Assembly: GCF_000186345.1 (NCBI RefSeq) | Contig: NC_014962.1 | Location: 2,880,450 to 2,944,449, forward strand | DNA length: 64,000 nucleotides | Reading direction: 5' to 3' | From: Isosphaera pallida ATCC 43644 | Lineage (GTDB): Bacteria > Planctomycetota > Planctomycetia > Isosphaerales > Isosphaeraceae | In this document: positions 31,972 to 50,812 of the stretch, one piece after another | Position numbering within the stretch: the stretch's first letter is position 1 | Layout of the letters: each line of letters starts with the position of its first letter | Notes under the pieces: generated by a model | Database searches by the model: none | The model's input: the letters and a program-made list of their open reading frames with translations, nothing else | What the model was told of the DNA's origin: nothing | Translations under genes and position numbers: made by a program

Positions 31972-33588
31972 ATGCCCCCTGTGTCCGACCTCGATCCCAC
32001 ACTCCGATCGGCTCTCCTCGACCTGAGCCGTTCCTATCACCCGCCCGGCGATCCCTATCCTTGGCTGACCCCCTGGCGGCTCGAGGATTTGGGCGATCCC
32101 GGCTTTCGCGCTGCGCATCGGGTCCGGTTCAACGTCATGTCCGGCGCGATGGCCAACGGCATCGCCTCAGTGGAGCTCGTTGAGGCAATGGCGCGGGGGG
32201 GGATGGTCGGAATTTTCGGCGCGGCCGGTTTAGGACCGGAACGGGTAGCCGCAGCGCTGGACCGTCTCCAAACCAGCTTGGGCGATCGTCTTCCATGGGG
32301 CGTCAACCTCATCCATTCACCCAACGAACCGGCGCTTGAAGAGGCCGTGGCCGCGCTGTTGATCGCCCGCGGGGTTCGTTTGGTGGAAGCGTCAGCTTAC
32401 CTTGATTTGACACCGGCGATCGTCCGCTATCGTCTGGCCGGTCTGGAGCCGGACCCCGCCGATCCCCAGCGGGGTCGTCCCCGGCACCGAGTGATCGCCA
32501 AGGTCTCGCGGGTCGAAGTGGCCGCCAAGTTTCTCGGTCCGCCTCCGCCGCGTCTGGTCGCCAAGCTGCTGGACGAAGGAGCGATCAGCCCGCTTCAGGC
32601 CCGTTTGGCCCCCACCATCCCTATGGCCGACGACCTCACCGCCGAAGCCGACTCCGGCGGCCATACCGACAACCAACCCCTCGTCGCGCTGCTGCCCGCC
32701 CTGTTGGAATTGAGAGACCGCGAGTCGAAACGCCACGGCTGGACCATCCCCCCCCGCGTTGGGGCCGCCGGGGGGATCGCTACCCCCGCCGCCGCCGCCG
32801 CCGCCCTGGCAATGGGAGCCGACTACCTTGTGACAGGCTCGGTCAACCAAGCATGCGTTGAGTCCGGCACCTCCCCCATCGTGCGCCGGATGCTCGCTGA
32901 AGCTCGCCAGGGCGACCTGGCGATGGCCCCCGCCGCCGACATGTTCGAGATGGGCGTCAAGGTTCAGGTCCTCAAACGCGGCACCCTCTTTCCCCTCCGC
33001 GCCGCCAAGCTCTACGAATGGTATCGCAACCACGAGTCGCTCGATCATCTCTCCCAAAGCGACCGCGACCAGCTGGAACGGACCATTCTTCGTCAGTCAA
33101 TCGAAGCGGTTTGGGAACAAACCCAGAGCTTCTTCCAGCGCCGCGACCCCCGCCAGCTCGAACGGGCCGCCCGCGACCCCAAACACAAGATGGCTCTGGT
33201 CTTCCGCTGGTATCTCGGGCTGTCGTCGCACTGGGCCAACTCCGGTCAGCCCGACCGCGTGGTGGACTACCAAATCTGGTGCGGCCCAGCAATGGCGGCC
33301 TTCAACGCCTGGGTCGAAGGCTCTCACCTAGAATCGCCCGAAAACCGCCGCGCCGCGGAAGTCGCCCTCCAGATCCTCCACGGAGCCGCCGTGCTGTTGA
33401 GATCGGCCACCCTCCAAGGACGCGGTCGGCGTATCCCCGGCGACTGGATTCGACCCCGCCCCCTCCCCCCCGAGGAACTCCTGCGACGCCTGCGGTCCCC
33501 CCACCCCTCCGCAACCTCTCCACCCCGGACCGCCCCTCCCGAAGACCCCCGCTCCGTCCCTCTAGCCCCCAGCCTCGGCGTCCGCTAA
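31972..33588 (+). CDS. PfaD-type enoyl reductase (2-nitropropane dioxygenase fold) of PUFA synthase
   Basis: 538 residues, the usual size for PfaD. This FMN-binding TIM-barrel enzyme reduces enoyl intermediates during PUFA synthesis. Visible family blocks are RVRFNVMSGAMANGIAS, MVGIFGAAGLGPERV, GVNLIHSPNEPALEE, VEASAYLDLTPAIV, VIAKVSRVEVA, a glycine-rich VGAAGGIATPAAAAAALAMGADYLVTGSVNQA for the FMN phosphate, and the C-terminal helical lid with QTQSFFQRRDPRQLERA and KHKMALVFRWYLG. The start at 31972 is the ATG nearest to the conserved N-terminus; a GTG at 31837 is possible. First gene of the Pfa operon. Confidence 0.93.
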   Translation: MPPVSDLDPTLRSALLDLSRSYHPPGDPYPWLTPWRLEDLGDPGFRAAHRVRFNVMSGAMANGIASVELVEAMARGGMVGIFGAAGLGPERVAAALDRLQTSLGDRLPWGVNLIHSPNEPALEEAVAALLIARGVRLVEASAYLDLTPAIVRYRLAGLEPDPADPQRGRPRHRVIAKVSRVEVAAKFLGPPPPRLVAKLLDEGAISPLQARLAPTIPMADDLTAEADSGGHTDNQPLVALLPALLELRDRESKRHGWTIPPRVGAAGGIATPAAAAAALAMGADYLVTGSVNQACVESGTSPIVRRMLAEARQGDLAMAPAADMFEMGVKVQVLKRGTLFPLRAAKLYEWYRNHESLDHLSQSDRDQLERTILRQSIEAVWEQTQSFFQRRDPRQLERAARDPKHKMALVFRWYLGLSSHWANSGQPDRVVDYQIWCGPAMAAFNAWVEGSHLESPENRRAAEVALQILHGAAVLLRSATLQGRGRRIPGDWIRPRPLPPEELLRRLRSPHPSATSPPRTAPPEDPRSVPLAPSLGVR

Positions 33589-33755
33589 CCCCAAGTCGCC
33601 CTCCTCCTCGTTCCAGCTCCAATCCCCACCCCGCAACCGCAACCGCCGACGACCCCCGAACCCATATTCCCTCTCCTCAAGACAACCCGTGTAGAGACCT
33701 GATTCCCCCGACCAAACTCTCCAGATTCGCCAAGTTTTCCGGATACCCAAAGAAG

Positions 33756-35036
33756 ATGGGGTTGCGAGATCCGATCATCTTCGGCGCGTTTGACGCAACC
33801 CCGGCCCAAGAGACGAGCTTCTCGACCGTGACCGATCCCGCTCCCGACCAGCTTGAGTTCCCCCCCTCCACCTCGGCCCCGGCTTGGAGCCGCGTCGCCA
33901 CCACGCCATCATCAGGCGTGTCCCGCGTCGCTTCGCAACCGGACCGACCACGGTTCGAGCCGGTGGCGATCGTGGGCATCGGGTGCGCCTTTCCTGGCGG
34001 TCCCGATCGAGACGGCTTCTGGAACGCGATTCTCCGCGGCGACGACGCGATCCGACCCATCCCTCCCAGCCACTGGCGTCCCGAGGATTACCTCGACGCC
34101 GACCCCAAAGCCCCCGACCGCGTCTACGCCGCCCAAGGCGGCTTTCTCGACCCCATCGAGTTCCCGATCCTGGAATTCGGCGTCGCCCCCCAAAACCTCG
34201 AAGCCACCGACACCACGCAACTGCTGGGCCTCGTCGCCGCCCAAGCCGCCCTCGCCGACGCTGGACTCGCCGGCCCCCACGCCCGCCCCTTCGACCGCGC
34301 CGCCTGCTCGGTGATCCTCGGCGTCACCGGCACCTTGGAACTCGTCGTCCCCCTCGGCGCACGGCTGGCCCACCCATTGTGGCGCGACGCCCTGCGACAA
34401 CACGGCGTGCCCGAGGACCAAGCCCAACAGATCATCCAGTCAATCGCCGACCGCATGGTCCCCTGGCAGGAAAACTCCTTCCCCGGCCTGCTCGGCAACG
34501 TCGCCGCCGGACGCATCGCCAACCGCCTGGACCTCCACGGCTCCAACTGCGTGGTGGACGCCGCCTGCGCCTCCTCGCTGGCCGCCATCCACCTCGCCTG
34601 CCTCGAACTCCAAACCAGACGCGCTGACCTCGTCCTCTCTGGCGGCCTGGATACATTCAATGATATTTTTATGTATATGTGCTTTAGCAAGACGCCGGCG
34701 TTGTCGCCCAGCGGCCAGGCGCGGCCGTTCGACGCGGGGGCCGACGGCACGACGCTGGGCGAGGGCTTAGGGGTGGTGGTCCTCAAGCGTCTGGCCGACG
34801 CCGAAGCGCAGGGGGATCGGATCTACGCGGTGATTCGGGGTTTGGGATCGGCTAGCGACGGTAAAGGGTCAAGCGGTGTACGCGCCGCTGGCCGCCGGTC
34901 AGGCCCGCGCGTTGAGACGCGCCTACGAGCTGGCCGGCATCGAACCGGCGACGGTGGAACTCCTCGAGGCCCACGGCACCGGCACCAAGGTGGGCGACCA
35001 GGTGGAATTGACCGCGTTGCGCGAGGTGTACGCTGA
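33756..35036 (+). CDS. PUFA synthase subunit A, N-terminal part (ketosynthase, frameshifted)
   Basis: Probably the 5' part of one gene broken by an apparent extra G near 34875. Starting at ATG 33756, residues about 68 onward are a type I KS domain (FEPVAIVGIGCAFPGGPDR), with the nucleophile Cys at residue 271 in DAACASSL. After 34874 the correct frame continues at 34876; the original frame instead runs to a stop at 35036 through nonsense sequence. Upstream of 33756 the same frame is open but encodes Pro/Arg-rich nonsense. The KS C-terminal His residues and all later domains are in the next entry. If the sequence is right, the product would be a truncated KS. Confidence 0.85.
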   Translation: MGLRDPIIFGAFDATPAQETSFSTVTDPAPDQLEFPPSTSAPAWSRVATTPSSGVSRVASQPDRPRFEPVAIVGIGCAFPGGPDRDGFWNAILRGDDAIRPIPPSHWRPEDYLDADPKAPDRVYAAQGGFLDPIEFPILEFGVAPQNLEATDTTQLLGLVAAQAALADAGLAGPHARPFDRAACSVILGVTGTLELVVPLGARLAHPLWRDALRQHGVPEDQAQQIIQSIADRMVPWQENSFPGLLGNVAAGRIANRLDLHGSNCVVDAACASSLAAIHLACLELQTRRADLVLSGGLDTFNDIFMYMCFSKTPALSPSGQARPFDAGADGTTLGEGLGVVVLKRLADAEAQGDRIYAVIRGLGSASDGKGSSGVRAAGRRSGPRVETRLRAGRHRTGDGGTPRGPRHRHQGGRPGGIDRVARGVR

Positions 35037-38000
35037 ATCGGCCCGGCGTCTGGGGCGTCCGGTCGAGTCCTCCTGGTGCGCTCTGGGGTCGGTCAAGTCG
35101 CAGATCGGCCACACCAAGGCCGCCGCTGGAATCGCCGGGTTGCTCAAGGCGGCGTTGGCGTTGTACCACCGGACCTTGCCGCCTACCATCAAGGTGTCAA
35201 CCCCCGTCGAAGCGCTGAGGCCAGGCCGTTCGCCGTTTTACATCGCCACCGAAGCCCGTCCCTGGGCGCGTCCCCCCGGCGTCGCCACGCCCCGACGCGC
35301 AGCCGTGAGCGCCTTTGGCTTTGGCGGCTCGAACTATCATTGCGTGCTGGAGGAGGCCCCGACCCGCGCGGCCACCCCCACGTCGTCCGAAGCGATCGTT
35401 TGGGACGATGACCTGGCGCTGATCGCCCTGTCAGGATCGGACGCCGCGGCGATTCGTCGGCAACTGACCACGCTTGAGACCCTCTCGACAGGTTCCGACC
35501 AGTGGGACAACGGCTTCCGCGACCTCAAATCCTGGCGGGCATTGCTGAGCGTCGCAGCGCAGGGTCGAATAGCGTTCCGCCGCGACGATCCGATCCGCTT
35601 GACCCTCGTGGTCCGCCGCGACGATCCCGCAACCCGGTCCCGCTCCTTCGCCGCGGCCCTGCGCCGGTTAGAGGCTCTGGAGACCACGGGCGGGTCGGCA
35701 GATCCAACCATCCCGGAACCACCCGCGATCGCCGAGTCGGTCTGGTTGGAGACCGGTCCTCCGGCCCAGGCCGGCAGTCTGGCGTTGATCTTCTCGGGAC
35801 AAGGCTCCCAGCGTCTCGGCATGGGCCGCGACCTTTTCACCCGCTTCCCCCAGGCGCGTCGGGAATTGGAGCGTGCCGAGGCCCAGGGGCCGCCCAGTGG
35901 CTGGCGGGGTAGCCTTACCGACGTGATCTTCCCCAAGAGCCTCGGCGTGTTGGACCAGGACGAACGGGCTGAGGCCGAGCGACGCCTACGCGACACCGCC
36001 GCAGCCCAACCAGCGCTGGGGGCAATCGAACGGGGAATGCTGGCGATTCTCGAGGAGGTCTTCGGCCTGGAATGGGGCTGTGCCGCTGGTCACAGCTACG
36101 GCGAGCTGACCGCGCTGCTCGCGGCGGGACGGATCGACCGTGACGCCCACGCCCGCCTCTCGCGGGCGCGAGGTGAGGCAATGGCCGCCCAGGGACGCGG
36201 CGCGGGCCGCTCGTCGGGCGGAATGCTCGCGGTGTTGGCCGCCGAAACCCAGGTCGAGGCGGTGTTGCGGCAACGCGACCCCGCCCTGGCCACGCGTCTG
36301 ACCGCCGCCAACCGCAACGCGCCGCGCCAAATCGTCTACGCCGGCGACCCCGCCGACCTGGAACGGGCCCGCGAATTGCTCCGAACCGCCGGAATCGACG
36401 CCCGCCCCCTGCCAGTCTCGGCCGCGTTCCACTCCCATTTCGTCGCGCCAGCCCGCGACGACCTGGCCCGGGTGTTGGAAACAATTCCTTTCGTCCCCGG
36501 CACCCATCCCGTGTTCGCCAACCTCAACGGTGCCCCCTACCCCGCCGACCCCGCCGCCGCCCGCGCAACCCTAGCCGACCAACTCGCCCGACCGGTCGAG
36601 TTCGTCACCCTGATCCAAACCCTCAGACGCAGCGGCGTCACCACCTTCCTCGAAGTGGGTCCCGACGCCAAACTCGTGGGACTGATCCGGGCTATTCTCG
36701 CCGAAGATCGCTCCCACCCATCGACCGCTGCCTCCAGTCCACCCGCCCGCGTCTCGGTTCTGGCGCTGGACCCGCCAGCCCGGCCCGACGCAGGACCCTC
36801 GCCCGGCCTAGTTCACCTCGCCCGCGCTTTGGCCGGTCTGGCCGCGCTGGGCTATCCTCTGCGTTTGGATCAATGGCACCCCGTCGCGGCCCAGACCGCG
36901 TCAACCAAGCCTCGTCCCACCGTCCCCCTGGTCGGAGCCAACCACCGCTCCGCCAAAGTGGTCGCGGCCGCCTCGGTTCGCCCCCCGGCCGTGGCCGCCT
37001 CCCCTGCGTCAACCCACCAAGACGCGCTGCGGGGAAATCTGCCCGAGACCGCGGTTTCCCCGCCCGTCGCCACGCCTTCGGCCTCCCCCACTTTCTCGTC
37101 GTGGAACCCGCCGCCCACCCTTTCCGAGCCGGTTCCGTTCCCCGCCGTTGTCCCTCAGCCCCTCGAGCCCGGAGCGATGCCCTCGACCCGTGACCCCCAG
37201 CCACCCGCGTCTCCCGAACCGCGCCGCGACCACGCCCCGCATCGGACGAATGGCGACGTTGCCGGGTCCGCCCTGCCCCTCGCCCGTGCCGATCGCCTTG
37301 CAACCGTCGCCAGTCCCAACGGGGAACATCGGATTGGACAACCGGGATTCGCTCCGCCACCCCCAACCGCCCCACCCCCCGCGGATTCCCAACCGCCCGC
37401 CTCAACCCCGGTTGATTTTCACGCAGGCTCCACCCAGGCGCCGACTCATCTCCCTCCCTCCGCCCCGTCCGCGTTGTTGATCCTGAGCCGAGACGGTTTG
37501 TTGGCCCTCCAACGGCTCGCCGAACGGACCGCCGACCTACATCGTCAGTTTCTGGAGGGGCAGGATCGCCTTCAGCAAACCTTTCGCGCCCTGCTCGACC
37601 AGTACCACCGCGCCGGCGCGGAAGCGGGAACCTTCCTGATCCCCAACCCGCCGACTTCGTCGATCGCCCCTCCCCCACCCTGTCTGTCTCCGGAGCCAAC
37701 CTCGGCCCCGACTCCCGAACCTGTTCGGGCCACCCCAGTCACCCCTGCCCCCCGCCTCGAACCCGATCGTCCCACCGAACCCCCCGAACCCCCGCCCATC
37801 TCGTTCGGCCCAACGCCCTTCAGCCCACTCGAACCACCGACACCCATCCAGGACCACCCGCTCCACCCCCCTGCCCCCATCCCCGAGGAACCCGCCGCCG
37901 ATCCTGTCGCCGCTGATCCGCGAATCGGAAACGGACTCGACCCAGCGCGGGTGTCAGCACTTTTGCAGGTGGTGTCGTCCAAAACCGGTTATCCCCAAGA

Positions 38001-41000
38001 GATCCTCAATCTCGACATGGAACTGGACACCGATTTGGGAATCGACTCGATCAAACGAGTCGAAATCCTCTCGGCCGTCCAGGAACGGTTGCCCGATGCT
38101 CCCGAAGTGGCCCCCGAAGTCCTCGGAGGATTGCGCACGCTCCGCGACATCGCCGCCCATCTCGGCTCCAGCTCCATATCCACCAACATCAACATACCCC
38201 CGGTTGAAGAACCGACCACCCCGCTAACAACCTCGTCCACCTCCTCGGAATCGCAGGCGTTGTGGGACGGACTCGACCCAGCGCGGGTGTCAGCGCTTTT
38301 GCAGGTGGTGTCGTCCAAAACCGGTTATCCCCAAGAGATCCTCAATCTCGACATGGAACTGGACACCGATTTGGGAATCGACTCGATCAAACGAGTCGAA
38401 ATCCTCTCGGCCGTCCAGGAACGGTTGCCCGATGCTCCCGAAGTGGCCCCCGAAGTCCTCGGAGGATTGCGCACGCTCCGCGACATCGCCGCCCATCTCG
38501 GTGGCTCGACCACGTTGGCGTTGAGCGATGATCCGCCGCCCTCAAAGACACCCGCGCCGCCCAACCCGGTGGAGGAGGCCGCTCCGGTCCCTTTTGGATT
38601 GGGGGCGGAGCCGTCGGTCGGCTTCGCTCCCCCCTCCCGAACCCCGTTGCCGCGTCGCCGCACGCCGTCGGACGCCCAGTTGCGACGCCTGATCGTCGAG
38701 GCGATTCCCACTGAGCCCGCACCGCCGCTCCAAGAGGGCCCCGGCCCCGCGACCCAGGGCGTTTTCCTGGTGGCCGTCGCGTCACCGCCGTGGGGCGACG
38801 CGGATGGGTCAGATCGGGTTTTGGCCCAAGCGATTGTGTCTCGACTCAACACGCTGGGGTGTCTCGGGCGAGCCGTTTTAGTCGAACCGTCCCGGCTCGC
38901 CGACGCCGCGTTGCCCGCCGGTCCCGGACGCGGCTTACTCCTTATCGCCCCGCGCCGTATTGAATCCGTTCATGCAGATGAATGGCTGCGTTTCGCCTTC
39001 CGGGCCGTCCGAGAAGCCGGTCGAGGTTGGCAAACCGACCGGTCGACTGCAGACGCGGCGACGTGCGGGAACACTCTCCGCCCGATTCTGGCCTCGTTGA
39101 CCCGGCTCGACGGCGGGTTCGGCTTGGTGGACGCCCGCAAGATGATCGTCCCCGAGTTGGGCGGCGTCGCCGGTTTAGTCAAGACCGCCGGCTGGGAGTG
39201 GCCCCACGTGGCGGCCCTGGCCCTCGACCTCGACCCCAACTGGAACGATCCCTCCCGCGTCGCCGAGGCGGTCGTGGCCGAACTGGTCGCGCGGGCTCAA
39301 CCGGACCCCCACGCTTCCAGCACCTTCGACTTCCCTCAAGCGAGTCGAATGGTTCCCGAGATCGGTCTGGCCCCCAACGTTCGACGCCAAGTCCGGCTCC
39401 GCGACGCTGATCTCGACCCCGACTTCAATGTTGATGTTCATGAATCATCCCAGACCTTGATCTCAACCCATCTTGACAGCTTGGAGCGGATCGCTTCGTC
39501 GTCTTCGACTACCCGCGGGTTGCCGTTGGGTCCTGGCGAAGTGGTGGTGGTCACTGGCGGAGCGCGGGGAATCACCGCCGAGACCGCCCTGGCGCTGGCG
39601 CGTCTGGCCAAACCGACCCTGGTGATTCTAAGCCGAAGCGCCGCGCCCCAGGCTCCGCCGGCCTGGATCGCGTCGGAGGGAGCGGTCACCGAAGCCGATG
39701 TGACCCGCGGCCTGCTCCGTCGGGTCGATCCGGCCGCCCAAACCGACCTCGCCGCCATCCGCGCCGAGGCGCGGCGGTTGTTGGCCGAGCGCGAGGCGTT
39801 CCAGAACCTTCAACGCTTGCGCGACGCGGGAGCCACTGTGATCGCCAGCTCGGTCGATGTCCGCGATGCCCACGCCCTGGCCCAAACCTTCGCTAATCTC
39901 AGACGCGAGGTCGGACCAATCCGCGGCGTGCTGCACGGCGCGGGCATCCTGGCCGACAAGCCGATCCTTGCCAAGGACGAAGACTCGTTTCAACAGGTGT
40001 ATGAAACCAAGGTGGTCGGGCTGCGGGGATTGCTGGCCGCGTTGGAGCCGGACGAATGGCGGTTCCTAGCCCTCTTCTCCTCCACCACGGCGCGTTATGG
40101 TCGGGCTGGTCAGGTCGATTACGCCGTGGCCAATGAAGTCCTCAACAAATGGGCCGATCGGTTGGCCGCGGATCATCCCAACCGTCGCGTCGTGGCGCTG
40201 GGGTGGGGACCGTGGGCCGGCGGGATGGTGACTTCCGCGCTGCGTGGGGTTTTCGAGCGCGAAGGGATCGGTCTGATTCCTTTAGACCAAGGAGCCGACT
40301 TTTTGGCCACCGAACTCGCCCGGCCCGGCGACCAGGCCGAAATCGTGGTGTTGGGTCCAGGGCGCGTTCCGGGACTGGACGACCATCCGCCTGGCCATTT
40401 CCTCTCCCCCGTTCAGGCGTCTCAAGAATCCCGCGCCCCGACTCCGCCCCCACCCCCGACTCCGCCCCCGGGGAATCTGCCGGCAATGCCAATATCAGCA
40501 TTACCATCAATGCCAACCTCAATCTCGTCGTCGCTCCCTTCAGTGGTGGTCTCGCCGCCGTCGCGGCCCCACGCGGTGTCGTTCATCGATCGGGTGACGC
40601 TGTCGGTTCAAACAGCCCCAGCGCTGCATTCGCACGTCCTGGGCGGGCGGGCGGTGGTGCCTTTAGCGTGGCTTCTGGAATGGCTAGGACACGCGGCACT
40701 GGCACGTCAGCCGGGTCGCCACTTAATTGGTTTTGACCATCTGCGCGTCGATCATCCCGCTGTCGTGGACGCCGTTGAACCCACCCGCTTCGAGACGTGG
40801 GTTGGTCCGGCCGAACCGCCGGCGTTTGCCGTGGCCGGCGTCACGCCCCGCACTCCAAGCGAGGAAGCCGCGCTGCGGCTTCCGCTGACGCTGCGGGATA
40901 GCAACGGCCGCCCCCTGCTCACTGCCTGGGCCCGCTTGACGGAGTCTGACGCTCGTCCGAGTCCTCTGGTACCAACGCTGCCCGACCGGAAATCATCGGT

Positions 41001-41580
41001 GTCAAACGCCTCGACAGGTTCGATACCGACGGTCGAGGCGTTCTACGAGGCCGACCTGTTTCACGGCCCCTTTTTCCGAGCGATCGACCGAATCGAATGG
41101 CTGGATGAAACAGGGATGGCGGTGACGACCCGCCCCGGCCCTCCTCCGCCGCAATGGCTGAGCAACCCGCCCCGCTCGCGCTGGTTGAGCGACCCCCGCG
41201 TCCTGGATGTCGCGTTTCAACTGATGGTCGGCTGGATGAGCCGAATGCGGGATCACGCGGTGTTGCCGGTGGGCTTTGAACGCTGTCGTCTGGCCGCGCC
41301 GGAGGACTGGCCACGCCAAACGTCGGACTCGGGTTCATGGTCTTCCGCGACTTGCCTGCGTGTGACAATGCGGATCCATTCGGCCCGCAACGGTCGTTTA
41401 GTGGCCGATCTCGAGGTGATCGAGGTTCTCCGAGGAACCCTGCTGGCCCGCATCGAGGGGGCAACCGCGGTGACCAGTCCGGTTCTTCGTCGAGCCTTCG
41501 TCCAAACCGAACTGGACGCGACGCCCGCGATGGCGGCGACTTCCACCCGCGGGGTTAGAGGGGAGGGTCGGGTCTCGTGA
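34876..41580 (+). CDS. PUFA synthase subunit A, main part (KS C-term, AT, ACP x2, KR, DH)
   Basis: 2234 residues from the frame that resumes at 34876. In order: KS C-terminal half with the two catalytic His (EAHGTGTKVGD and SVKSQIGHTKAAAG); an acyltransferase (LIFSGQGSQRLGMG, active Ser in GHSYGE); a proline-rich linker; two nearly identical ACPs with phosphopantetheine Ser in GIDSIKR (37931-38165 and 38267-38501); a ketoreductase (VVVTGGARGITAETALALA, LFSSTTARYGRAGQVDYAVAN); and a C-terminal hotdog dehydratase-like domain (LHSHVLGGRAVVPLAWL). This matches PfaA/Pfa2. The last base pairs overlap the next gene (GTGA). Confidence 0.9.
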   Translation: MYAPLAAGQARALRRAYELAGIEPATVELLEAHGTGTKVGDQVELTALREVYAESARRLGRPVESSWCALGSVKSQIGHTKAAAGIAGLLKAALALYHRTLPPTIKVSTPVEALRPGRSPFYIATEARPWARPPGVATPRRAAVSAFGFGGSNYHCVLEEAPTRAATPTSSEAIVWDDDLALIALSGSDAAAIRRQLTTLETLSTGSDQWDNGFRDLKSWRALLSVAAQGRIAFRRDDPIRLTLVVRRDDPATRSRSFAAALRRLEALETTGGSADPTIPEPPAIAESVWLETGPPAQAGSLALIFSGQGSQRLGMGRDLFTRFPQARRELERAEAQGPPSGWRGSLTDVIFPKSLGVLDQDERAEAERRLRDTAAAQPALGAIERGMLAILEEVFGLEWGCAAGHSYGELTALLAAGRIDRDAHARLSRARGEAMAAQGRGAGRSSGGMLAVLAAETQVEAVLRQRDPALATRLTAANRNAPRQIVYAGDPADLERARELLRTAGIDARPLPVSAAFHSHFVAPARDDLARVLETIPFVPGTHPVFANLNGAPYPADPAAARATLADQLARPVEFVTLIQTLRRSGVTTFLEVGPDAKLVGLIRAILAEDRSHPSTAASSPPARVSVLALDPPARPDAGPSPGLVHLARALAGLAALGYPLRLDQWHPVAAQTASTKPRPTVPLVGANHRSAKVVAAASVRPPAVAASPASTHQDALRGNLPETAVSPPVATPSASPTFSSWNPPPTLSEPVPFPAVVPQPLEPGAMPSTRDPQPPASPEPRRDHAPHRTNGDVAGSALPLARADRLATVASPNGEHRIGQPGFAPPPPTAPPPADSQPPASTPVDFHAGSTQAPTHLPPSAPSALLILSRDGLLALQRLAERTADLHRQFLEGQDRLQQTFRALLDQYHRAGAEAGTFLIPNPPTSSIAPPPPCLSPEPTSAPTPEPVRATPVTPAPRLEPDRPTEPPEPPPISFGPTPFSPLEPPTPIQDHPLHPPAPIPEEPAADPVAADPRIGNGLDPARVSALLQVVSSKTGYPQEILNLDMELDTDLGIDSIKRVEILSAVQERLPDAPEVAPEVLGGLRTLRDIAAHLGSSSISTNINIPPVEEPTTPLTTSSTSSESQALWDGLDPARVSALLQVVSSKTGYPQEILNLDMELDTDLGIDSIKRVEILSAVQERLPDAPEVAPEVLGGLRTLRDIAAHLGGSTTLALSDDPPPSKTPAPPNPVEEAAPVPFGLGAEPSVGFAPPSRTPLPRRRTPSDAQLRRLIVEAIPTEPAPPLQEGPGPATQGVFLVAVASPPWGDADGSDRVLAQAIVSRLNTLGCLGRAVLVEPSRLADAALPAGPGRGLLLIAPRRIESVHADEWLRFAFRAVREAGRGWQTDRSTADAATCGNTLRPILASLTRLDGGFGLVDARKMIVPELGGVAGLVKTAGWEWPHVAALALDLDPNWNDPSRVAEAVVAELVARAQPDPHASSTFDFPQASRMVPEIGLAPNVRRQVRLRDADLDPDFNVDVHESSQTLISTHLDSLERIASSSSTTRGLPLGPGEVVVVTGGARGITAETALALARLAKPTLVILSRSAAPQAPPAWIASEGAVTEADVTRGLLRRVDPAAQTDLAAIRAEARRLLAEREAFQNLQRLRDAGATVIASSVDVRDAHALAQTFANLRREVGPIRGVLHGAGILADKPILAKDEDSFQQVYETKVVGLRGLLAALEPDEWRFLALFSSTTARYGRAGQVDYAVANEVLNKWADRLAADHPNRRVVALGWGPWAGGMVTSALRGVFEREGIGLIPLDQGADFLATELARPGDQAEIVVLGPGRVPGLDDHPPGHFLSPVQASQESRAPTPPPPPTPPPGNLPAMPISALPSMPTSISSSLPSVVVSPPSRPHAVSFIDRVTLSVQTAPALHSHVLGGRAVVPLAWLLEWLGHAALARQPGRHLIGFDHLRVDHPAVVDAVEPTRFETWVGPAEPPAFAVAGVTPRTPSEEAALRLPLTLRDSNGRPLLTAWARLTESDARPSPLVPTLPDRKSSVSNASTGSIPTVEAFYEADLFHGPFFRAIDRIEWLDETGMAVTTRPGPPPPQWLSNPPRSRWLSDPRVLDVAFQLMVGWMSRMRDHAVLPVGFERCRLAAPEDWPRQTSDSGSWSSATCLRVTMRIHSARNGRLVADLEVIEVLRGTLLARIEGATAVTSPVLRRAFVQTELDATPAMAATSTRGVRGEGRVS
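37931..38501 (+). repeat. Direct repeat encoding the tandem ACP domains
   Basis: Bases 37931-38165 and 38267-38501 are identical over 235 bp except for one substitution (a at 37959, g at 38295); the offset is 336 bases. Both encode the ACP domain with GIDSIKR. The linkers between and after differ. Such identity implies recent duplication or gene conversion. Confidence 0.95.
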
Positions 41581-44500
41581 ATCCGCTCGCCACGACCACC
41601 CGGCTCTCGGATCGTCCCGCCGAATCGACTCGCGTGGCGATCCTGGGCGGCGGTGGCCTCTTTGCTGCCGCCACCGATCCCCAGACCTTCCGCATGCTTC
41701 TGGAACGCGGCGACCACGCTTTGCGCCCCCTGCCACCGCATCGGGTCGGTCGGGAACGTCCCGAAGACCTGTTGGGGCCAACCTCCACTGATCCCGACAC
41801 CGTAGCCTCGCTTCAAGCCGGTTGGATCGACGAGGAGGCGCTGGACCCTCACGCGGCTTGGCGAGCTTCGGGATTGCCAGGCACTCCGGGGCTGGATCGC
41901 GCCTTCGTCGAACGCCTCGATCCCACCTTCCGCCTGGCCCTAGCCGCCGCGACCCGCGCCTGGGCCGATGCTCTCGATCGAGCCGGCGTTGAAGCCCGCG
42001 AACGACTGCTGGGACCCCACGCCCGAATCGGAGTGATCCTGGGGCAAATCCTGCTGCCCACCGAGACCGCGACCCGCTTGACCCTGCGACACTTGGCTGC
42101 GGAATGGCTCAAGCACGAGTCCGACCGCTCGCCTGGTTTGGCCGACGCCCCCTCCCCCTGGGATGCCGCGCTGCCGCCGGTGGACCCGGCCAACCTAGCC
42201 GTGGGCGGCTGGACCGCCACCCTGGTGGCCCGCTGGCTGGGCATCACGCGGCCCGTCGTCGCCTTCACCCTAGACGCGGCATGCGCCTCGTCGCTCTACG
42301 CGCTCAAGCTGGCGCGCGACGAACTGCTCGCCGGTCGGGCCGACCTCATGCTCTGCGGCGGAGTCTCCCGGCCCGATGCGCTCTACACCCAGATGGGGTT
42401 CAGCCGCCTGCATGCCCTCTCCCCCAAAGGCCGGCCCACCCCGTTTGACCAGTCGGGCGACGGCTTAATCGTCGGCGAAGGGGCCGGGGTATTCGTCCTG
42501 ACCCGCTGGGACAAGTCGGCCCCTCTTGGCGAACGTCCGATCCGCCCCCGCGCCATTCTCGTCGCCGCCGGTCTCTCCAACGACCTGCGTGGCGGCCTGC
42601 TCGCTCCCTCCAGCGAAGGTCAACTGCGGGCGATGCGCGCCGCCTACGCCCAGGCCGGCTGGCATCCCGGCCAGGTCGATTGGATCGAATGCCACGCCAC
42701 CGGAACCCCGGTCGGCGACGCAGTGGAATTGGAAAGTCTGCACACCCTTTGGCGCGAGGCGGGCGAACAGGGACCGCCCGGGCGCTGTCCGCTGGGTTCG
42801 GTCAAGTCCAACGTCGGCCACGCCTTGACGGCCGCCGGAGCCGCTGGTCTGCTCAAACTGCTGGACGCTCTCGAAACCCGGCGGATTCCTCCGACCTCGG
42901 GGCTTCGCAATCCCCTGCCTGCGCTCGATTCCCGATCGTCGCCGTTTCGGGTTTTGACCCGGGCCGAACCGTGGACGCCCCGCCACCCGGACCAACCCCG
43001 TCGCGCCGCGTTATCCGGCTTTGGTTTCGGCGGCATCAACGCTCATTTGCTCATCGAAGAAGCGCGGGAGGATTCCCCGAGCGTCTCGGCCGCAGGATCG
43101 CCGCGGCCGAGGTTCGAAGCCCCAACCACGCCTGCCCGAAACGAGGATCCGCCCCCCGCCCTGGCGGTGGTAGGCCTGGCGATCCGCACCGACCGTCACC
43201 CCGATCTCAACGCCGTGCGAACCGCGTTGTTCGATCCATCGCCTCCCCGCCTGGACGACCCCAAGGCCAAACCACCCCAGCGCGCCTACCGCATCGCGCC
43301 GGGACGCTTCCGCGTGCCACCCCGCGAACTTGAACAAGCCCTCCCCCAGCAAATTCTCGCCCTGGACGTGGCCACCCGCGCCTGGGAGGATGCCCACGGC
43401 CCAGCCGCGTCGGATCAAACCACTCGGCGGCACCAGGATCGAACCGACCATCCCCGCGTGGGAGGTTTCGTGGGACTGGAACTCGACCCGCGCACCTGCG
43501 ACTTCCACGCCCGTTGGCACGCCGTTCTGTTGGTGCACGCTTGCGAGTTGGCTCAGGGCGGAACCCTCGACGACCAGACCAAGGCCGATCTGGTTCGGCG
43601 TTTGTCCCAAGGCGCGCATCCCCCCCTGTCGCCCGATCGGGTCATGGGGGCGCTGGGAGGCATCGTGGCCAGCCGGATCGCCCGCGAATTGCGGCTGGGC
43701 GGTCCCTGCTTCACCCTCTCCAGCGGCTCCACCTCGGGGCTGGACGCGCTGCGGGTGGCTGCCCAAGCAGTTCAACGCGGCGAACTCGAAGCTGCGGTGG
43801 TAGTCGCCGCCGACCACGCCCAGGATCCCCGGACCGCAGCACGTCTGGCCGCCTTGGGCGAGGCCGACCCCGGCCGTCATCGTCCCGCGGCCGCCGGCGT
43901 TGCGTTGATCCTCAAACGGTTCGACGACGCCCTCAAGGCCGGCGACCCGATCTGGGCAGTGATCGAGTCGGTTGGCCAGGCCCCCCCATTCTCGGGCCAA
44001 ACCGATCCAAACTCGTCGATCTCTTCCGAAGAACAACGGTCCGCGGCCTCTGCCATGCGATTCGACGGACAGGGTCTCACCGAACGCCTCGGTGCGACTG
44101 GGGCGGCCGCGGGTTTGCTGGAAGTGGCCCGAGCCATCCTGGCGCTGCACGAGGATCTGCTGCCGCCAGGAGTGGGAACCGGACCCGACCGCGACCGTCC
44201 CCGCTTCTGGCTACGCAATCGCCAAGATGGTCCGCGTCGGGCCCTGGTGAGTCGTCCAGGCGATCTTGAATGCCATCAGGTGTTCCTCCGCGGTTGCGAA
44301 CCCCGCCGCCGCGCCGCCTCGATTCAGCCCTTGGGACCACCCGCGACCCAATGGATCAGCCTAGGAGCCAACGACCAGGCCGGTCTACTCGCCGCGCTGG
44401 ATCGCCTGGAATCAGCCGGTCCGATCCAACCCAGCACGTTTCAGCACATCGCATCCCAGCACGTCGGCCCGTGGCGGATCGCGCTGGGACTGACGCCCGG

Positions 44501-47500
44501 TCGTCCCGAAGATCACGGCGAATTGGTCGCAGCGGCACGTCGCGTGGTGACCGGCCAACCCCTCGCCGGAATGTCGAAGTGGGCCGCCCGGCTGGTCTGG
44601 ACCGACCCCCAACTCATCGCGCCCTCCACCGACGCTCCCACCCAGCGTCGTCTGGCCTTCGTCTATCCCGGCACCGGAGCGCATTGTCTGGGCATGGGAC
44701 GGGAGATCGCCGCGGCCTGGCCGGAAATTCTCCGCCGTCAGGATTCGGAGAATCAACGCCTGAAAGATCAATATCGCCCCGATCTGTTCTGGGAGTCGCG
44801 GGCGCTCCCGCGTCCCGCCGATCCCCGCGATTTGTTGCTGGCTCAGGTCGCCCACGCCACTTGGTTGACCGACTTTCTCATCGCCCACGGTGCCCGTCCC
44901 GGGGTGGCCTTGGGCTACTCGCTAGGCGAGACCTCCGCCCTGTTTGGCCTTCGAGTTTGGACCGACCGCGACGAGATGCTGGAACGGGTCGAAACCTGGC
45001 CACTCTTTCGTCACGACCTGGCCGGGGAGCAACGCGCTGCCCGTCGCGCCTGGGGACTGGCCGAGACCGAACCGACCGACTGGATCGCCGCCGTCCTCCC
45101 CGCCCCCCTGGAATCAGTGCGTCAGGCGCTTCAGGAAGCCGGCATACGACGGGTCGAGCCCCTGATCGTCAACACCCCCCGCCAAACCGTCGTCGGCGGT
45201 CCGCGCGGCGAAATTCTCGACCTGGCCCGCCGCCTGTGTCTGACCGATCGAACCGCCACCGCTGCGAACTCCCCGCCCCGCCGCCCGTCCGAAACCAACA
45301 CCCCATCGGGGTCGCTCTCCCCAAGCCCGTCGCCAGCCTCCTGGTCCGAAGTGCCCGGCGTCTCGATCGCGCATTGTTCCATCGTAGAACTGGTCCGCGA
45401 CGACTACCGCGCCATGCACCGTCTGCCCACCCGAACGGTCGAACCAACCGATCCCTTGTTCATCTCGGGGGCCACCGGCCAACCCTATCGCCCCGACACC
45501 GAATCGGCCGCCCGGGCGATCGTCGATCACGCCACCCGAGGCATCAACTTCCCCCTCGCCGTGGAAACCGCCTACCGTCTCGGAGCCCGCCTGTTCGTCG
45601 AAGTCGGGCCCGGATCAGTCTGCACACGTATGATCCAAGAAATTCTTGGATCTCGCCCCCATCTTGGAATTCCTTGTCAACCTCATGGCGTCGATCCCAT
45701 CGAAGCGCTTCAGCGCACTTTGGCGACTCTCCACGTGAACCACGCCCTGCCACGGCTGGATTGGCACGCCGCTCCACCGTCGGATGTCACAGCGACGCCG
45801 TCGCCCACGTCCTCGCCCATCGTGATCCCCTACGACGCACCTCGCCCCGATTGGCCTGACCCGCCGCCTTGTTGTCTCCAACCCACTCGCGCCACCATGC
45901 CTTCCTCATCGTCGAGTCCTCCCCGATCCTTCAGCCCAACCGAACTCGAAACCAATCCCACCAGCGATTCCTGGAACAACGCGGTCGCCGATTCTCTGAC
46001 CCAAGGAGGGGCCTCCCCATGCTTTTCGGAGTCGTCATCGGCCCCGCGACCGGTGGTCGTCGGGGACACTTCGAGCGACCAGGCCGACGAGTTCCCGGTT
46101 CGCCTGTGGCAAGGTATGGAGGCGGCCGCCGATCAATCAGCGCGGGCTCACCACGCCTTTTTGACCTTTTGCCGCAACCTAAGCGAAACCCTGGCCGTCC
46201 AAACCAAGCGGGTGCTGGACCTGGAACGCCATGACAGTAGCCCGGCCCAATCCAAGCCGCTAGAGATTTCGAGCTGCCATTGGGTGGACGGCGAACCTCG
46301 GAGAGGAGGCGATGCGTCCAGCGGAGCGTCCAAGGCCAAACCTTGGCTGGACCGCGCAGGCTGCCTCGCCTTCGCTGTCGGGCGAATCAGCGATGTGCTG
46401 GGGCCGGAATTCGCCGAGATCGACGCTCACCCCACCCGCGTTCGTCTCCCCGACGAACCCCTGATGCTAGTGGACCGGATTTTGGAGATCGAAGGGGAAC
46501 CTAAGTCGCTGACGCATGGTCGCATCGTAACCGAACACGACGTGCGACCCGACGCCTGGTATCTCGATCACGGGGTCATGCCAACCTGCGTGGCAATCGA
46601 GTCGGGTCAAGCCGACCTGTTCCTTTCCAGTTGGTTGGGAATCGACTTCCGAACCAAGGGGGAGGCGGTGTATCGTCTGCTCGACGCCGAGATCGACTTC
46701 GCCCGCGGCCTGCCCCGCCCCGGCGAGACAATCCGTTACGATATCACCATCGACCATTTCTTCCGACAGGGAACAACATATCTTTTCCGGTTTCGATTCG
46801 ATGGCACCATCGACGGCCAACCGCTCTGTCGGATGCGCAACGGTTGCGCGGGGTTTTTCACCCGTGAGCAGCTTCATTCTGGCCAAGGTCTCGTCTTCAC
46901 TTCCCACGATCTGGCTCGTCGTCCCGGAGTCAAGCCGGCCGATTGGCGTCCCCTGGCACCCATTGAGTGCGTCGAATCCTACGACGCGGCGCAGCTCGAC
47001 GCCTTGCGACAGGGCGACTACGCCGCGGCCTTCGGTCCGGCCTTCGCGGGGTTGAACCTGACGAACCCCTTGAGCCTGCCCGGCGGCCGGATGCGGACGA
47101 TTCACCGGGTGGTAGAACTGGACCCAACCGGCGGACGATTCGGGCTGGGATCAATCAAGGCAGAAGCCGACATTCACCCGGACGACTGGTTTCTCACGTG
47201 TCATTTTGTTGACGACATGGTGATGCCGGGCACCCTCATGTTCGAGTGTTGCCTGCACACCCTGCGGGTCTTTTTGTTCCGTCTGGGTTGGGTGGGGGAG
47301 GCGACCCCCGAGGTCGCCTTCGAGCCGGTCCCCGGGGTCGGCAGCCGGCTCACGTGCCGTGGTCAGGTGACGCGGGAGACCCGTGTGGTCGGCTACGAGT
47401 TGACAATCAAGGAGATTGGGTATCGTCCCGAACCCTACGCGATCGCCGACGCTGTCATGACGGCCGACGGCAAGCCGATTGTTCGGGTGGAGACGATGTC

Positions 47501-48698
47501 GCTCCAACTCACCGGCCTCGATCGGGCAACGTTGGAGCGTCTTTGGGACCGTACGCCGGCTGTGACCATCGAAGCGCAGCGGGCGAGCGGTTCCGACAAA
47601 ACAGCTCGTCGTCCGATGTACGATCATACGTCTATTCTCGAATTCGCGGTGGGTCGTCCCTCGGCCGCTTTCGGCGAACCCTACCGCGTCTTCGATTCCG
47701 AACGCATCATCGCGCGATTGCCTGGTCCACCCTACAACTTCTTGCATCGAGTCGAGAAGGTGGATGGTCCCCCTTGGGTGTTGACCCCAGGTATCGAAGC
47801 GTGGGGAGCCTACGACGTTGATCCCAAGGACTGGTACTTCGAGGCCGAGCGCGGCTGGCCGCCGCGGATGCCCTACGCAGTGCTGCTGGAGTCGGGTCTG
47901 CAGCTTTGCGGCTGGCTGGCCGCCTATCAGGGATCGGCTTTAACCAGCCCTATCGACCTGTCGTTCCGCAACCTAGGCGGGCAGGCGGTCCAACATCGAC
48001 CGGTCGGCAGCGACGCGGGCACGCTCCACTTGTGGTCGCGAATGACCCGTTTCTCCCAATCTGGCGGTATGATCGTCCAATGGTTCGACTTCGCGGTGTC
48101 CGACGAACGGGGCCCGGTTCTGACCGGCGACACCTACTTCGGGTTCTTCTCCAAGGTGGCGCTGGCTCGACAGGTTGGCATTCGAGAATCTCAGCCGCCG
48201 AGCTGGACCGCAGCCCAGCGGGCCGAGGCCCGCGCCTTTGCCCGCGCGTTTCCCCGCCACGCGCCGTTTCCGGACGACCGCTTGCGCATGATCGACCAAA
48301 TCGAAGGCGTGCTGCCGCGGGGAGGATCACACGGGCTGGGGTCCATTGAAGGCTCGATGTCGATCGATCCCTCGTCCTGGTATTTCCAAGCTCATTTTCA
48401 TCAGGATCCTGTGATTCCCGGCTCGCTCGGGTTGGAGTCGTTGCTGCAACTGCTCAAATACCTCGCAGCCGACCGTTGGGGCGTCCCCGCTTCGGGGTTT
48501 GAATCGATGCCGCCGGGAACCCAACACGCCTGGACGTATCGAGGCCAGGCAATCCCCGCCAATCGCCGCGTGGTGACCGTCGGAGACGTGACGGCGATTG
48601 ACGACCACCACCGAGTGCTCACCGGCGACGGCGCGTTGCTGGTCGATGGCTTATACATCTATCAGATGAAAGGGTTTGCGGTACGCGTCGTGGATTGA
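41577..48698 (+). CDS. PUFA synthase subunit C with fused acyltransferase (KS-CLF-AT-DH-DH)
   Basis: 2373 residues. KS1 (residues 1-515) has the nucleophile C236 in DAACASSL and His in ECHATGTPVGD and GSVKSNVGHALTAAG. The next domain (about 525-870) is a chain-length factor: its Cys position is Ser718 in SSGSTSGLDAL, so it cannot condense. An acyltransferase follows (VYPGTGAHCLGMG, Ser1115 in GYSLGE, to about 1430). The C-terminus has four hotdog units arranged as two FabA-like dehydratase pairs (from about 1595, 1855, 2015 and 2250), e.g. GRISDVLGPEF and HFHQDPVIPGSLGLESLLQLL. The layout matches Pfa3 of terrestrial myxobacteria, but without the C-terminal acyltransferase (AGPAT) of that protein. 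GTG start overlaps the previous stop. Confidence 0.92.
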   Translation: MNPLATTTRLSDRPAESTRVAILGGGGLFAAATDPQTFRMLLERGDHALRPLPPHRVGRERPEDLLGPTSTDPDTVASLQAGWIDEEALDPHAAWRASGLPGTPGLDRAFVERLDPTFRLALAAATRAWADALDRAGVEARERLLGPHARIGVILGQILLPTETATRLTLRHLAAEWLKHESDRSPGLADAPSPWDAALPPVDPANLAVGGWTATLVARWLGITRPVVAFTLDAACASSLYALKLARDELLAGRADLMLCGGVSRPDALYTQMGFSRLHALSPKGRPTPFDQSGDGLIVGEGAGVFVLTRWDKSAPLGERPIRPRAILVAAGLSNDLRGGLLAPSSEGQLRAMRAAYAQAGWHPGQVDWIECHATGTPVGDAVELESLHTLWREAGEQGPPGRCPLGSVKSNVGHALTAAGAAGLLKLLDALETRRIPPTSGLRNPLPALDSRSSPFRVLTRAEPWTPRHPDQPRRAALSGFGFGGINAHLLIEEAREDSPSVSAAGSPRPRFEAPTTPARNEDPPPALAVVGLAIRTDRHPDLNAVRTALFDPSPPRLDDPKAKPPQRAYRIAPGRFRVPPRELEQALPQQILALDVATRAWEDAHGPAASDQTTRRHQDRTDHPRVGGFVGLELDPRTCDFHARWHAVLLVHACELAQGGTLDDQTKADLVRRLSQGAHPPLSPDRVMGALGGIVASRIARELRLGGPCFTLSSGSTSGLDALRVAAQAVQRGELEAAVVVAADHAQDPRTAARLAALGEADPGRHRPAAAGVALILKRFDDALKAGDPIWAVIESVGQAPPFSGQTDPNSSISSEEQRSAASAMRFDGQGLTERLGATGAAAGLLEVARAILALHEDLLPPGVGTGPDRDRPRFWLRNRQDGPRRALVSRPGDLECHQVFLRGCEPRRRAASIQPLGPPATQWISLGANDQAGLLAALDRLESAGPIQPSTFQHIASQHVGPWRIALGLTPGRPEDHGELVAAARRVVTGQPLAGMSKWAARLVWTDPQLIAPSTDAPTQRRLAFVYPGTGAHCLGMGREIAAAWPEILRRQDSENQRLKDQYRPDLFWESRALPRPADPRDLLLAQVAHATWLTDFLIAHGARPGVALGYSLGETSALFGLRVWTDRDEMLERVETWPLFRHDLAGEQRAARRAWGLAETEPTDWIAAVLPAPLESVRQALQEAGIRRVEPLIVNTPRQTVVGGPRGEILDLARRLCLTDRTATAANSPPRRPSETNTPSGSLSPSPSPASWSEVPGVSIAHCSIVELVRDDYRAMHRLPTRTVEPTDPLFISGATGQPYRPDTESAARAIVDHATRGINFPLAVETAYRLGARLFVEVGPGSVCTRMIQEILGSRPHLGIPCQPHGVDPIEALQRTLATLHVNHALPRLDWHAAPPSDVTATPSPTSSPIVIPYDAPRPDWPDPPPCCLQPTRATMPSSSSSPPRSFSPTELETNPTSDSWNNAVADSLTQGGASPCFSESSSAPRPVVVGDTSSDQADEFPVRLWQGMEAAADQSARAHHAFLTFCRNLSETLAVQTKRVLDLERHDSSPAQSKPLEISSCHWVDGEPRRGGDASSGASKAKPWLDRAGCLAFAVGRISDVLGPEFAEIDAHPTRVRLPDEPLMLVDRILEIEGEPKSLTHGRIVTEHDVRPDAWYLDHGVMPTCVAIESGQADLFLSSWLGIDFRTKGEAVYRLLDAEIDFARGLPRPGETIRYDITIDHFFRQGTTYLFRFRFDGTIDGQPLCRMRNGCAGFFTREQLHSGQGLVFTSHDLARRPGVKPADWRPLAPIECVESYDAAQLDALRQGDYAAAFGPAFAGLNLTNPLSLPGGRMRTIHRVVELDPTGGRFGLGSIKAEADIHPDDWFLTCHFVDDMVMPGTLMFECCLHTLRVFLFRLGWVGEATPEVAFEPVPGVGSRLTCRGQVTRETRVVGYELTIKEIGYRPEPYAIADAVMTADGKPIVRVETMSLQLTGLDRATLERLWDRTPAVTIEAQRASGSDKTARRPMYDHTSILEFAVGRPSAAFGEPYRVFDSERIIARLPGPPYNFLHRVEKVDGPPWVLTPGIEAWGAYDVDPKDWYFEAERGWPPRMPYAVLLESGLQLCGWLAAYQGSALTSPIDLSFRNLGGQAVQHRPVGSDAGTLHLWSRMTRFSQSGGMIVQWFDFAVSDERGPVLTGDTYFGFFSKVALARQVGIRESQPPSWTAAQRAEARAFARAFPRHAPFPDDRLRMIDQIEGVLPRGGSHGLGSIEGSMSIDPSSWYFQAHFHQDPVIPGSLGLESLLQLLKYLAADRWGVPASGFESMPPGTQHAWTYRGQAIPANRRVVTVGDVTAIDDHHRVLTGDGALLVDGLYIYQMKGFAVRVVD

Positions 48699-48791
48699 TT
48701 GAGCCAAGCAGCTCGCCAAACCAGCCAACGCCGCGGTGGGAGTACGAAAGGACCCAGCCCGATTGATCCGAGATGTCATTGAGGAACGTGA

Positions 48792-49847
48792 ATGCGCTAT
48801 TCTCGTGTCTTTGTGGATGCCATTGGGTATGAATTGCCGCCGATCGTGGTCAGTTCCGACGACTTAGAGGAACGGCTGGCTCCGGTCCTCTCGGCATTGC
48901 GGATTCCTCGGGGACAGCTAAAAGCCTGGACCGGGATTGTCGAACGTCGTTGGTGGGAAGAGGGATTTCCACTCGCCCAAGGCGCCATTCAAGCGGCGCG
49001 CCGCGCGCTTGAAGCCTCGCGGGTACGTCCCCACGAGATCGAGGCGGTCATCTACGGGGGAGTGAGCCGCGAGCTATTCGAGCCGGCGACCGCCTGCCAA
49101 GTGGCGGCCGATCTGGGGGTCGCGGACCACGCGGTGGTCCATGACGTTTCAAACGCCTGTCTGGGCGTGCTGACAGGAATGGTAGAAATTGCCAACCGCA
49201 TCGAACTCGGACAAATTCGCGCTGGGATTGTCGTCTCCTGCGAGTCGGCGCGGGAAATCAACGAAATCACGATCGAAGAACTGCTGGCTCATGTTCATGA
49301 CCTGGAACGCTTCAAGGAGGGAGTGGCGACCCTGACCGGCGGTTCGGGAGCCGCGGCAGTGGTGCTGACCGACGGCTCGTTCGGTCCCGAGCCGGGCCGG
49401 CGGTTGCTGGGCGGGGTGACCCGGACCGCTCCCCAATTCCACGCGCTTTGTCGTTGGGGAATCGAAGCAGTGCTGACGCCCGCAGCCCGTTGTTTCCGCC
49501 AATTCATGAGCACCGACAGCCTGGCCGTCCTCAAGCATGGAGCCGATCTGGGATTCCGCACTTGGGGGGCGTTTCTGCGCAAACTTGGTTGGAGCCAAGA
49601 ATTAATCGATAAGATCATTTGTCATCAAGTGGGCCAAAGCCACCGCGACGCGATCCTCCGGGCCCTGGGCATCGCGCCTGAGAAGGATTTCCCAACCTAC
49701 CCGTACTTAGGCAACATCGGCACTGTTTCGCTGCCCCTGACCGCCGCTTTAGCGGAAGAACGCGGCTTCCTCAAACCTGGCGACCGCGTCGGTTGGCTGG
49801 GCATCGCCAGTGGACTCAATTGCATGATGCTGGGATTGGAGTGGTGA
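48792..49847 (+). CDS. oleA: OleA-like thiolase (FabH/KASIII superfamily)
   Basis: 351 residues. The catalytic triad of the thiolase fold is present: Cys123 in VSNACLGVLTG, His in ICHQVGQSHRD and Asn in YLGNIGTVSLPL. The N-terminal block GVSRELFEPATACQVAADLG is nearer to OleA than to FabH of fatty acid synthesis. OleA joins two fatty acyl chains head to head to make a beta-keto acid, the first step of long-chain olefin synthesis. It sits 93 bases after the Pfa genes on the same strand and overlaps oleB by TGATG. A KASIII priming fatty acid synthesis is the main alternative. Confidence 0.8.
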   Translation: MRYSRVFVDAIGYELPPIVVSSDDLEERLAPVLSALRIPRGQLKAWTGIVERRWWEEGFPLAQGAIQAARRALEASRVRPHEIEAVIYGGVSRELFEPATACQVAADLGVADHAVVHDVSNACLGVLTGMVEIANRIELGQIRAGIVVSCESAREINEITIEELLAHVHDLERFKEGVATLTGGSGAAAVVLTDGSFGPEPGRRLLGGVTRTAPQFHALCRWGIEAVLTPAARCFRQFMSTDSLAVLKHGADLGFRTWGAFLRKLGWSQELIDKIICHQVGQSHRDAILRALGIAPEKDFPTYPYLGNIGTVSLPLTAALAEERGFLKPGDRVGWLGIASGLNCMMLGLEW

Positions 49848-50812
49848 TGTCCACGACGGTTCCATCCTCCCACCGTCTTGACCGGGTCGAGGAGTTTCTC
49901 GCGGCTCATCCGGGCCGGCGCTTCGCAACCCCTTCAGGACCAGCTCTGGTCTATCGGGAGTCCGGCGATCCATCAACGCCGCCGGCAATCCTGGTCCACG
50001 GCAACCCAACCTGGAGCTATCTGTTCCGCCGTCTCATCGACCCCTTGGCCGAACGGTTTCGAGTCATCACCATGGATCATGTGGGGTGTGGCGAATCCGA
50101 CCGCCCCTCGGAACAGACTTACGGATATCGTTTAGCCGACCGAGTCGCGGATTTAGAAGCCCTGATGGATCATCTCGACCCGAATCGGCCCTTCACCCTA
50201 ATCGCTCACGACTGGGGAGCGCTGATTGGACTAGCCGCGGCGGTGCGCCGGCCCCATCGCTTCGGACGCCTGGCGGTGATGAACACGGCCGCCTTCCCAC
50301 TGCCGGCGAATCGACCCTTCCCCCGCGAATTGGTCGTCGCGCGGTTGCCGCTGCTGGGACAGTTTCTCGTGTGTCGGCTCAATCTGTTTTGCAAGACCGC
50401 GGCCCGCCGCTGCGTTGTCCACCCCCTCTCCACTGAGGTCCGTCGCGGCTTTCTGCACCCCTACGACAGCCCCGAACGCCGTCGAGCGGTCCATCGTTTC
50501 GTGCGAGACGTTCCATTGCGGCCGGGCGATCCATCCTGGGATCTCCTGGTTCAAACGAGCGAAGGGCTACAACTCTTTCAAGATCGACCGTTTTGGATCG
50601 GATGGGGACAACGTGATTTTCTCTTCGACGCCCCCTTCCTGGAGGAATGGCGCAGGCGTGTCCCCTTCGCCGAATACGCCCTCTTCCCCAACGCGGGACA
50701 TTACCTGCTGGAGGACGACTTCGAAGCCGTCGCTTCCGCGTTGATAGAGTTCGTGAATCGAACCGAGTGCATCTTCCCACCTCACCAACGACTCAACCCA
50801 ATCCAAGCCTGA
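49847..50812 (+). CDS. oleB: OleB-like alpha/beta hydrolase (haloalkane dehalogenase family)
   Basis: 321 residues from ATG 49847, which shares a base with the oleA stop. The haloalkane dehalogenase-like fold shows an oxyanion/halide-region HGNPTWSYLFR, DHVGCGESDRP, the nucleophile Asp122 in AHDWGALIGL (in place of a serine) and the catalytic His in NAGHYLLEDD. OleB converts the cis beta-lactone to olefin and carbon dioxide. The pairing with OleA makes OleB more likely than a true dehalogenase. An in-frame GTG at 49793 would overlap oleA by 54 bases and is less likely. No oleC or oleD follows in this window. Confidence 0.82.
   Translation: MSTTVPSSHRLDRVEEFLAAHPGRRFATPSGPALVYRESGDPSTPPAILVHGNPTWSYLFRRLIDPLAERFRVITMDHVGCGESDRPSEQTYGYRLADRVADLEALMDHLDPNRPFTLIAHDWGALIGLAAAVRRPHRFGRLAVMNTAAFPLPANRPFPRELVVARLPLLGQFLVCRLNLFCKTAARRCVVHPLSTEVRRGFLHPYDSPERRRAVHRFVRDVPLRPGDPSWDLLVQTSEGLQLFQDRPFWIGWGQRDFLFDAPFLEEWRRRVPFAEYALFPNAGHYLLEDDFEAVASALIEFVNRTECIFPPHQRLNPIQA

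Follow-up and report, generated by a model that had tools for sequence, protein, structure and literature searches.

A PUFA synthase gene cluster joined to oleA and oleB in Isosphaera pallida, with oleC-oleD displaced and pfaA frame-broken

A 64,000-nucleotide stretch of the Isosphaera pallida IS1B genome (the window; C2:2880450-2944449 in a genome of 5,472,964 + 56,340 bases) very probably carries the pfa half and the oleA and oleB genes of an ancestral pfaD-pfaA-pfaC-oleA-oleB-oleC-oleD polyene cluster for a Shewanella-like pathway, with oleC and oleD moved elsewhere and pfaA broken. I. pallida IS1B is a hot-spring planctomycete that grows at 40-55°C (PMC3072084). The fatty acids published for it comprise C14 and C18, plus C18:1 in trace amounts, and include no PUFA; neutral lipids are absent from the lipid data of the same paper (PMC3072084).

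The link from Pfa to Ole is already known in Shewanella, and a planctomycete version was published in 2011, when Shulse and Allen suggested the same link for the Type I pfa cluster found in deltaproteobacteria and one planctomycete and observed frequent linkage of ole genes (PMC3098273). New here are the seven-gene order fixed across the family, an OleA clade that goes with pfaD, and two features of I. pallida: the dislocated oleC-oleD pair and the broken pfaA frame.

Gene layout and the frame break in pfaA

The cluster comprised the following features (window positions):

31972..33588, + strand: pfaD-type enoyl reductase (TIGR02814, 596 bits, over cut-off)
33756..35036, + strand: 5' part of pfaA, N-terminal half of the KS with the catalytic Cys (ORF; PF00109; TIGR02813 profile positions 7-308)
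34866..34873, + strand: single extra base (GGGTCAAG) breaking pfaA (relatives in frame; position-3 GC frame shift nearby)
34876..41580, + strand: 3' part of pfaA, C-terminal half of the KS, AT, two ACP, KR and DH (TIGR02813 from profile position 309; Pfam)
41577..48698, + strand: pfaBC fusion with KS, Cys-less CLF-like KS, PfaB-like AT and three FabA-like stretches (Pfam, NCBIfam, motifs)
48792..49847, + strand: oleA thiolase (NF006720, 464 bits, cut-off 285; PDB 3row, E=7e-57; alignment; tree)
49847..50812, + strand: oleB-like alpha/beta hydrolase of the haloalkane dehalogenase fold, candidate beta-lactone decarboxylase (HDWG and AGHY motifs kept; synteny with oleB of relatives)

The original prediction had placed pfaD, the pfaA domains, a pfaBC-like gene, oleA and oleB on this one strand, and profile matches far above chance agreed with it; the overlaps named at two junctions (GTGA at 41577, TGATG at 49845-49849) were found as described. 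The gene predicted as KS-CLF-AT-DH-DH did contain the KS, the CLF-like KS and the AT, but Pfam detected three FabA-like stretches instead of two DH domains, and the full HF...P motif was present in two of them. The fused pfaBC with its KS-CLF-AT-DH domains and the PfaD enoyl reductase above cut-off inside the cluster fit a Type I pfa-like synthase. Such a synthase has one intact PfaA (KS-AT-ACP-KR), which was found in the orthologues of relatives; in the I. pallida sequence PfaA was split in two frames.

A gene for a CsrA-family regulator lay directly 5' of pfaD on the same strand (window 30988-31566; PF02599, E=1.5e-19). A promoter scan 5' of pfaD found no sigma-70-like site, and terminator matches were at chance level. 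The downstream phosphodiesterase (51212) and MFS (52996) genes were rejected as operon members, as they were not beside the cluster in ten relatives.

All domains of the predicted KS-AT-ACP2-KR-DH gene were present, but in two frames and not in a single ORF. The KS Cys motif DAACASS was in the frame of ATG 33756, in which genuine coding extended to approximately 34868 and the frame then continued to a stop at 35036. The KS His motifs, AT, two ACP, KR and DH were in the +1 frame (ORF 34876-41580). Alignment to relatives showed exactly one extra base at approximately 34869 in the first KS, the window reading GGG-T-CAA-GCG-GTG-TAC where relatives read, for example, GGG-CAG-GCC-GTC-TAC; close to the same position the position-3 GC pattern of pfaA switched frame. 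The added base was ambiguous, an extra T giving GQAVYAP and an extra A giving GSAVYAP. In ten Isosphaeraceae genomes and one distant relative pfaA was unbroken, with the peptide SDGKGQAVYAP or similar. A conserved programmed frameshift was rejected because relatives read pfaA in frame.

Two further observations were made in pfaA. At window 34650-34690, within the conserved KS region, a stretch (GATATTTTTATGTATATGTGCTTTAGC) was rich in AT and its codons were unusual, and 3' of it the codon style seemed to turn from C-ending to G-ending; the stretch is possibly a recombination junction. The two ACPs (window 37939-38515), 112 residues apart, were identical at 230 of 240 bases and therefore point to a recent duplication or conversion.

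OleA, OleB and the displaced oleC-oleD pair

The prediction of an OleA-like thiolase rather than a KASIII held. NF006720 was matched well over its cut-off, OleA structures were the best structural matches (197 bits, vs 73 to the best FabH-type), and the protein grouped with OleA in the tree; a KASIII/FabH identity was ruled out by the same three analyses. Residues C123, H278, N308 and E97 aligned, respectively, with the active-site Cys, His and Asn of Xanthomonas OleA and with the Glu contributed by its partner subunit. Compared with Xanthomonas OleA, the planctomycete OleAs had an extra loop near residue 230 (residues 226-241), and several pfaD-linked OleAs were longer still, at 380-400 aa.

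OleC, OleD and an Sfp-type phosphopantetheinyl transferase (PPTase), which the original prediction had noted as missing from the window and wanted sought genome-wide, were all detected outside it, and their loss from I. pallida was ruled out. The two ole genes were:

C2:1508904-1510709, - strand: oleC, olefin beta-lactone synthetase (E=2e-160)
C2:1507746-1508882, - strand: oleD, 2-alkyl-3-oxoalkanoate reductase (E=6e-107)

The genome carried oleB in the window and, apart from it, oleC and oleD as an adjacent pair (C2:1507746-1510709) 1.42 Mb from oleB. Both OleC and OleD scored below the narrow equivalog cut-offs, which were set for Xanthomonas and Shewanella. The single Sfp/HetI-like PPTase had 277 aa and matched the HetI model with E=8e-27, under the equivalog cut-off, and PF01648 over its cut-off; one AcpS-like protein was also present. 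The pfa genes and oleAB were on one strand with the predicted junctions, but the claim of one transcriptional unit is incomplete in I. pallida because oleC and oleD sit 1.42 Mb away.

Identity to the Singulisphaera acidiphila proteins differed among the Ole enzymes. For OleA it was 67-68% in I. pallida and 62-73% in other family members. For OleB, OleC and OleD it was 46%, 48% and 55% in I. pallida, vs 58-73%, 58-67% and 60-66%, respectively, in the others. OleC and OleD of I. pallida formed the longest end branches of their trees, which were weakly supported and did not place I. pallida firmly. The divergence of the three proteins may reflect decay, heat adaptation or lost linkage.

Conservation of the cluster and the pfaD-associated OleA clade

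Ten well-assembled Isosphaeraceae genomes were read to both sides of oleA, and every one had pfaD-pfaA-pfaC-oleA-oleB-oleC-oleD in one run and in this order. The same run, whole or clipped by contig ends, also occurred in further families of planctomycetes and, in other phyla, in one MAG each of Elusimicrobia, Desulfobacteraceae (a sulfate reducer) and Betaproteobacteria. Among 45 Isosphaeraceae genomes, 29 had PfaD together with a close OleA, 3 had OleA only, 2 had PfaD only and 11 had neither. Across 393 genomes sampled from the phylum the corresponding numbers were 61, 115, 4 and 213, so that OleA was present in 61 of 65 pfaD genomes and in 115 of 328 others (Fisher p=6e-20, the related genomes not being independent). 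Pairs of pfaD and OleA on the same contig were 13-21 kb apart in 27 genomes.

The best OleA identity to that of the window was at least 47% in all pfaD genomes listed and, with one exception, at most 47% in genomes without pfaD. Phylogenetic analysis placed the pfaD-associated OleAs and their close kin in one clade (SH-aLRT 97); the tree was a quick one, its outgroup was distant, one of its branches was very long, and named Shewanella and Geobacter OleAs were not among its sequences.

In many planctomycetes that lack pfaD, an OleA-family thiolase (40-47% identity) stood by itself, and no oleB or oleC was detected within approximately 7 kb of it. In four of its contexts the genes beside it were compared (flotillin, SPFH, MoeA and kinase genes) and were never shared; olefin-making may not be its role. 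One planctomycete had oleA-oleB-oleC-oleD in order with no pfa cluster within the fetched stretch; this is a possible FAS-fed olefin cluster.

The cluster was compared with three known systems. Like the Type I pfa cluster of Gemmata obscuriglobus, Geobacter and Desulfuromonas, it had a pfaBC fusion, a planctomycete member and a proposed feed to olefin biosynthesis. It differed in the frame-broken pfaA of I. pallida and in the Isosphaeraceae ole genes being physically joined in a fixed order, whereas Shulse and Allen note linkage only generally. S. acidiphila had the same seven genes in the same order; unlike in I. pallida, its pfaA was intact and oleCD lay directly 3' of oleB. In Shewanella, pfaB and pfaC are separate genes and pfa and ole lie in separate operons, unlike in I. 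pallida. The enzyme set itself is the same in Shewanella (pfaA-E and oleABCD, 31:9 polyene; Allemann 2019), whose hosts are cold-adapted and marine whereas I. pallida is a hot-spring host at 40-55°C.

The proposed pathway and alternative readings

In Shewanella, OleA accepts 16:4 chains carried by the Pfa ACPs, and the C31 product arises from two of them (PMC6463001); E. coli with pfaA-E and oleA produced a 31:8 ketone (PMC6463001). The use of Pfa chains by OleA is demonstrated for Shewanella. The catalytic steps, substrate chain and product in planctomycetes are proposed by that analogy. On the ACPs of PfaA, the PfaA/PfaBC/PfaD synthase would assemble polyunsaturated acyl chains. OleA would join two of these, probably straight from ACP, and with 16:4 chains the result would be a C32 beta-keto acid; OleD would reduce the condensation product, OleC would form the beta-lactone and OleB would decarboxylate it to a C31 polyene. 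In I. pallida the oleC-oleD pair appears to have been displaced from the cluster yet kept together, and pfaA to have received a one-base insertion in its first KS. Rattray et al. (2009; PMC2649909) ascribe C31:8 and C31:9 hydrocarbons to planctomycetes with reference to the species descriptions of Schlesneria paludicola and S. acidiphila. S. acidiphila carries the full seven-gene cluster.

The predicted Pfa-to-Ole link was upheld by gene order, co-occurrence and the pfaD-specific OleA clade, and such a pathway is well supported by the gene data in Isosphaeraceae; pfaA is frame-broken in I. pallida, however, and the idea had already been published. Counting against the pathway too are the PUFA-free fatty acids published for I. 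pallida, the OleC and OleD scores under the equivalog cut-offs, and the greater divergence of OleB, OleC and OleD compared with OleA. The function of the pathway in I. pallida depends on whether the pfaA insertion is real. The evidence for the frame break comes from one I. pallida assembly, and quite possibly, at somewhat less than an even chance, the break arose through a mistake in sequencing or assembly, or in culture, with pfaA intact in wild I. pallida. The genome was assembled from 141x reads with a stated error rate of less than 1 in 100,000 (PMC3072084), which, despite that depth, leaves room for up to approximately 55 errors in the genome; the TCA(A)GCG reading would be an A run longer by one base. 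However, Illumina polishing was applied, and the alternative reading, a T inserted after GGG and before CAA, does not correspond to a homopolymer error.

A more tentative reading is early decay of the pathway, in which a genuine insertion disables pfaA and the ole genes drift or are kept for other acyl chains. The break was seen in I. pallida alone among the relatives compared, and the genome had no close second copy of the broken KS, the next best match being the pfaC KS (38% identity). The relocation and long branches of oleCD and the divergent OleB point the same way, as does host growth at 40-55°C, where polyunsaturated lipids are not expected. Against decay, no further stop or frameshift was found across approximately 19 kb of coding sequence of the cluster, the catalytic motifs were intact in every domain, and OleA was about as conserved as in relatives.

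A PUFA synthase devoted to PUFA for membranes or storage, next to Ole enzymes that use ordinary FAS chains and share no substrate with it, is very unlikely. The 115 planctomycete genomes with an OleA-family protein and no pfa favour this reading, since the family is therefore not tied to Pfa chains. However, the OleAs of non-pfa genomes fell outside the pfaD-associated clade, nearly all of those fetched were without adjoining oleBCD, and the co-occurrence of pfaD and OleA was strong and local. Also very unlikely is a real yet tolerated break. The first KS would then be made by +1 frameshifting at the GGG-TCA site, where TCA ranks among the less used serine codons of this DNA, or as two polypeptides through a restart at GTG 34876 (preceded by AAAGGG); if true, a thermophile would be making polyunsaturated hydrocarbons with a PUFA synthase that is recoded or split.

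For the polyunsaturated C31 hydrocarbons attributed to planctomycetes, the joined pfa-ole genes are a concrete, family-wide candidate cluster, and they reveal an OleA lineage travelling with PUFA synthases. The Isosphaera type strain is a poor choice for testing the pathway because its pfaA is frame-broken, and S. acidiphila would be the better test organism.
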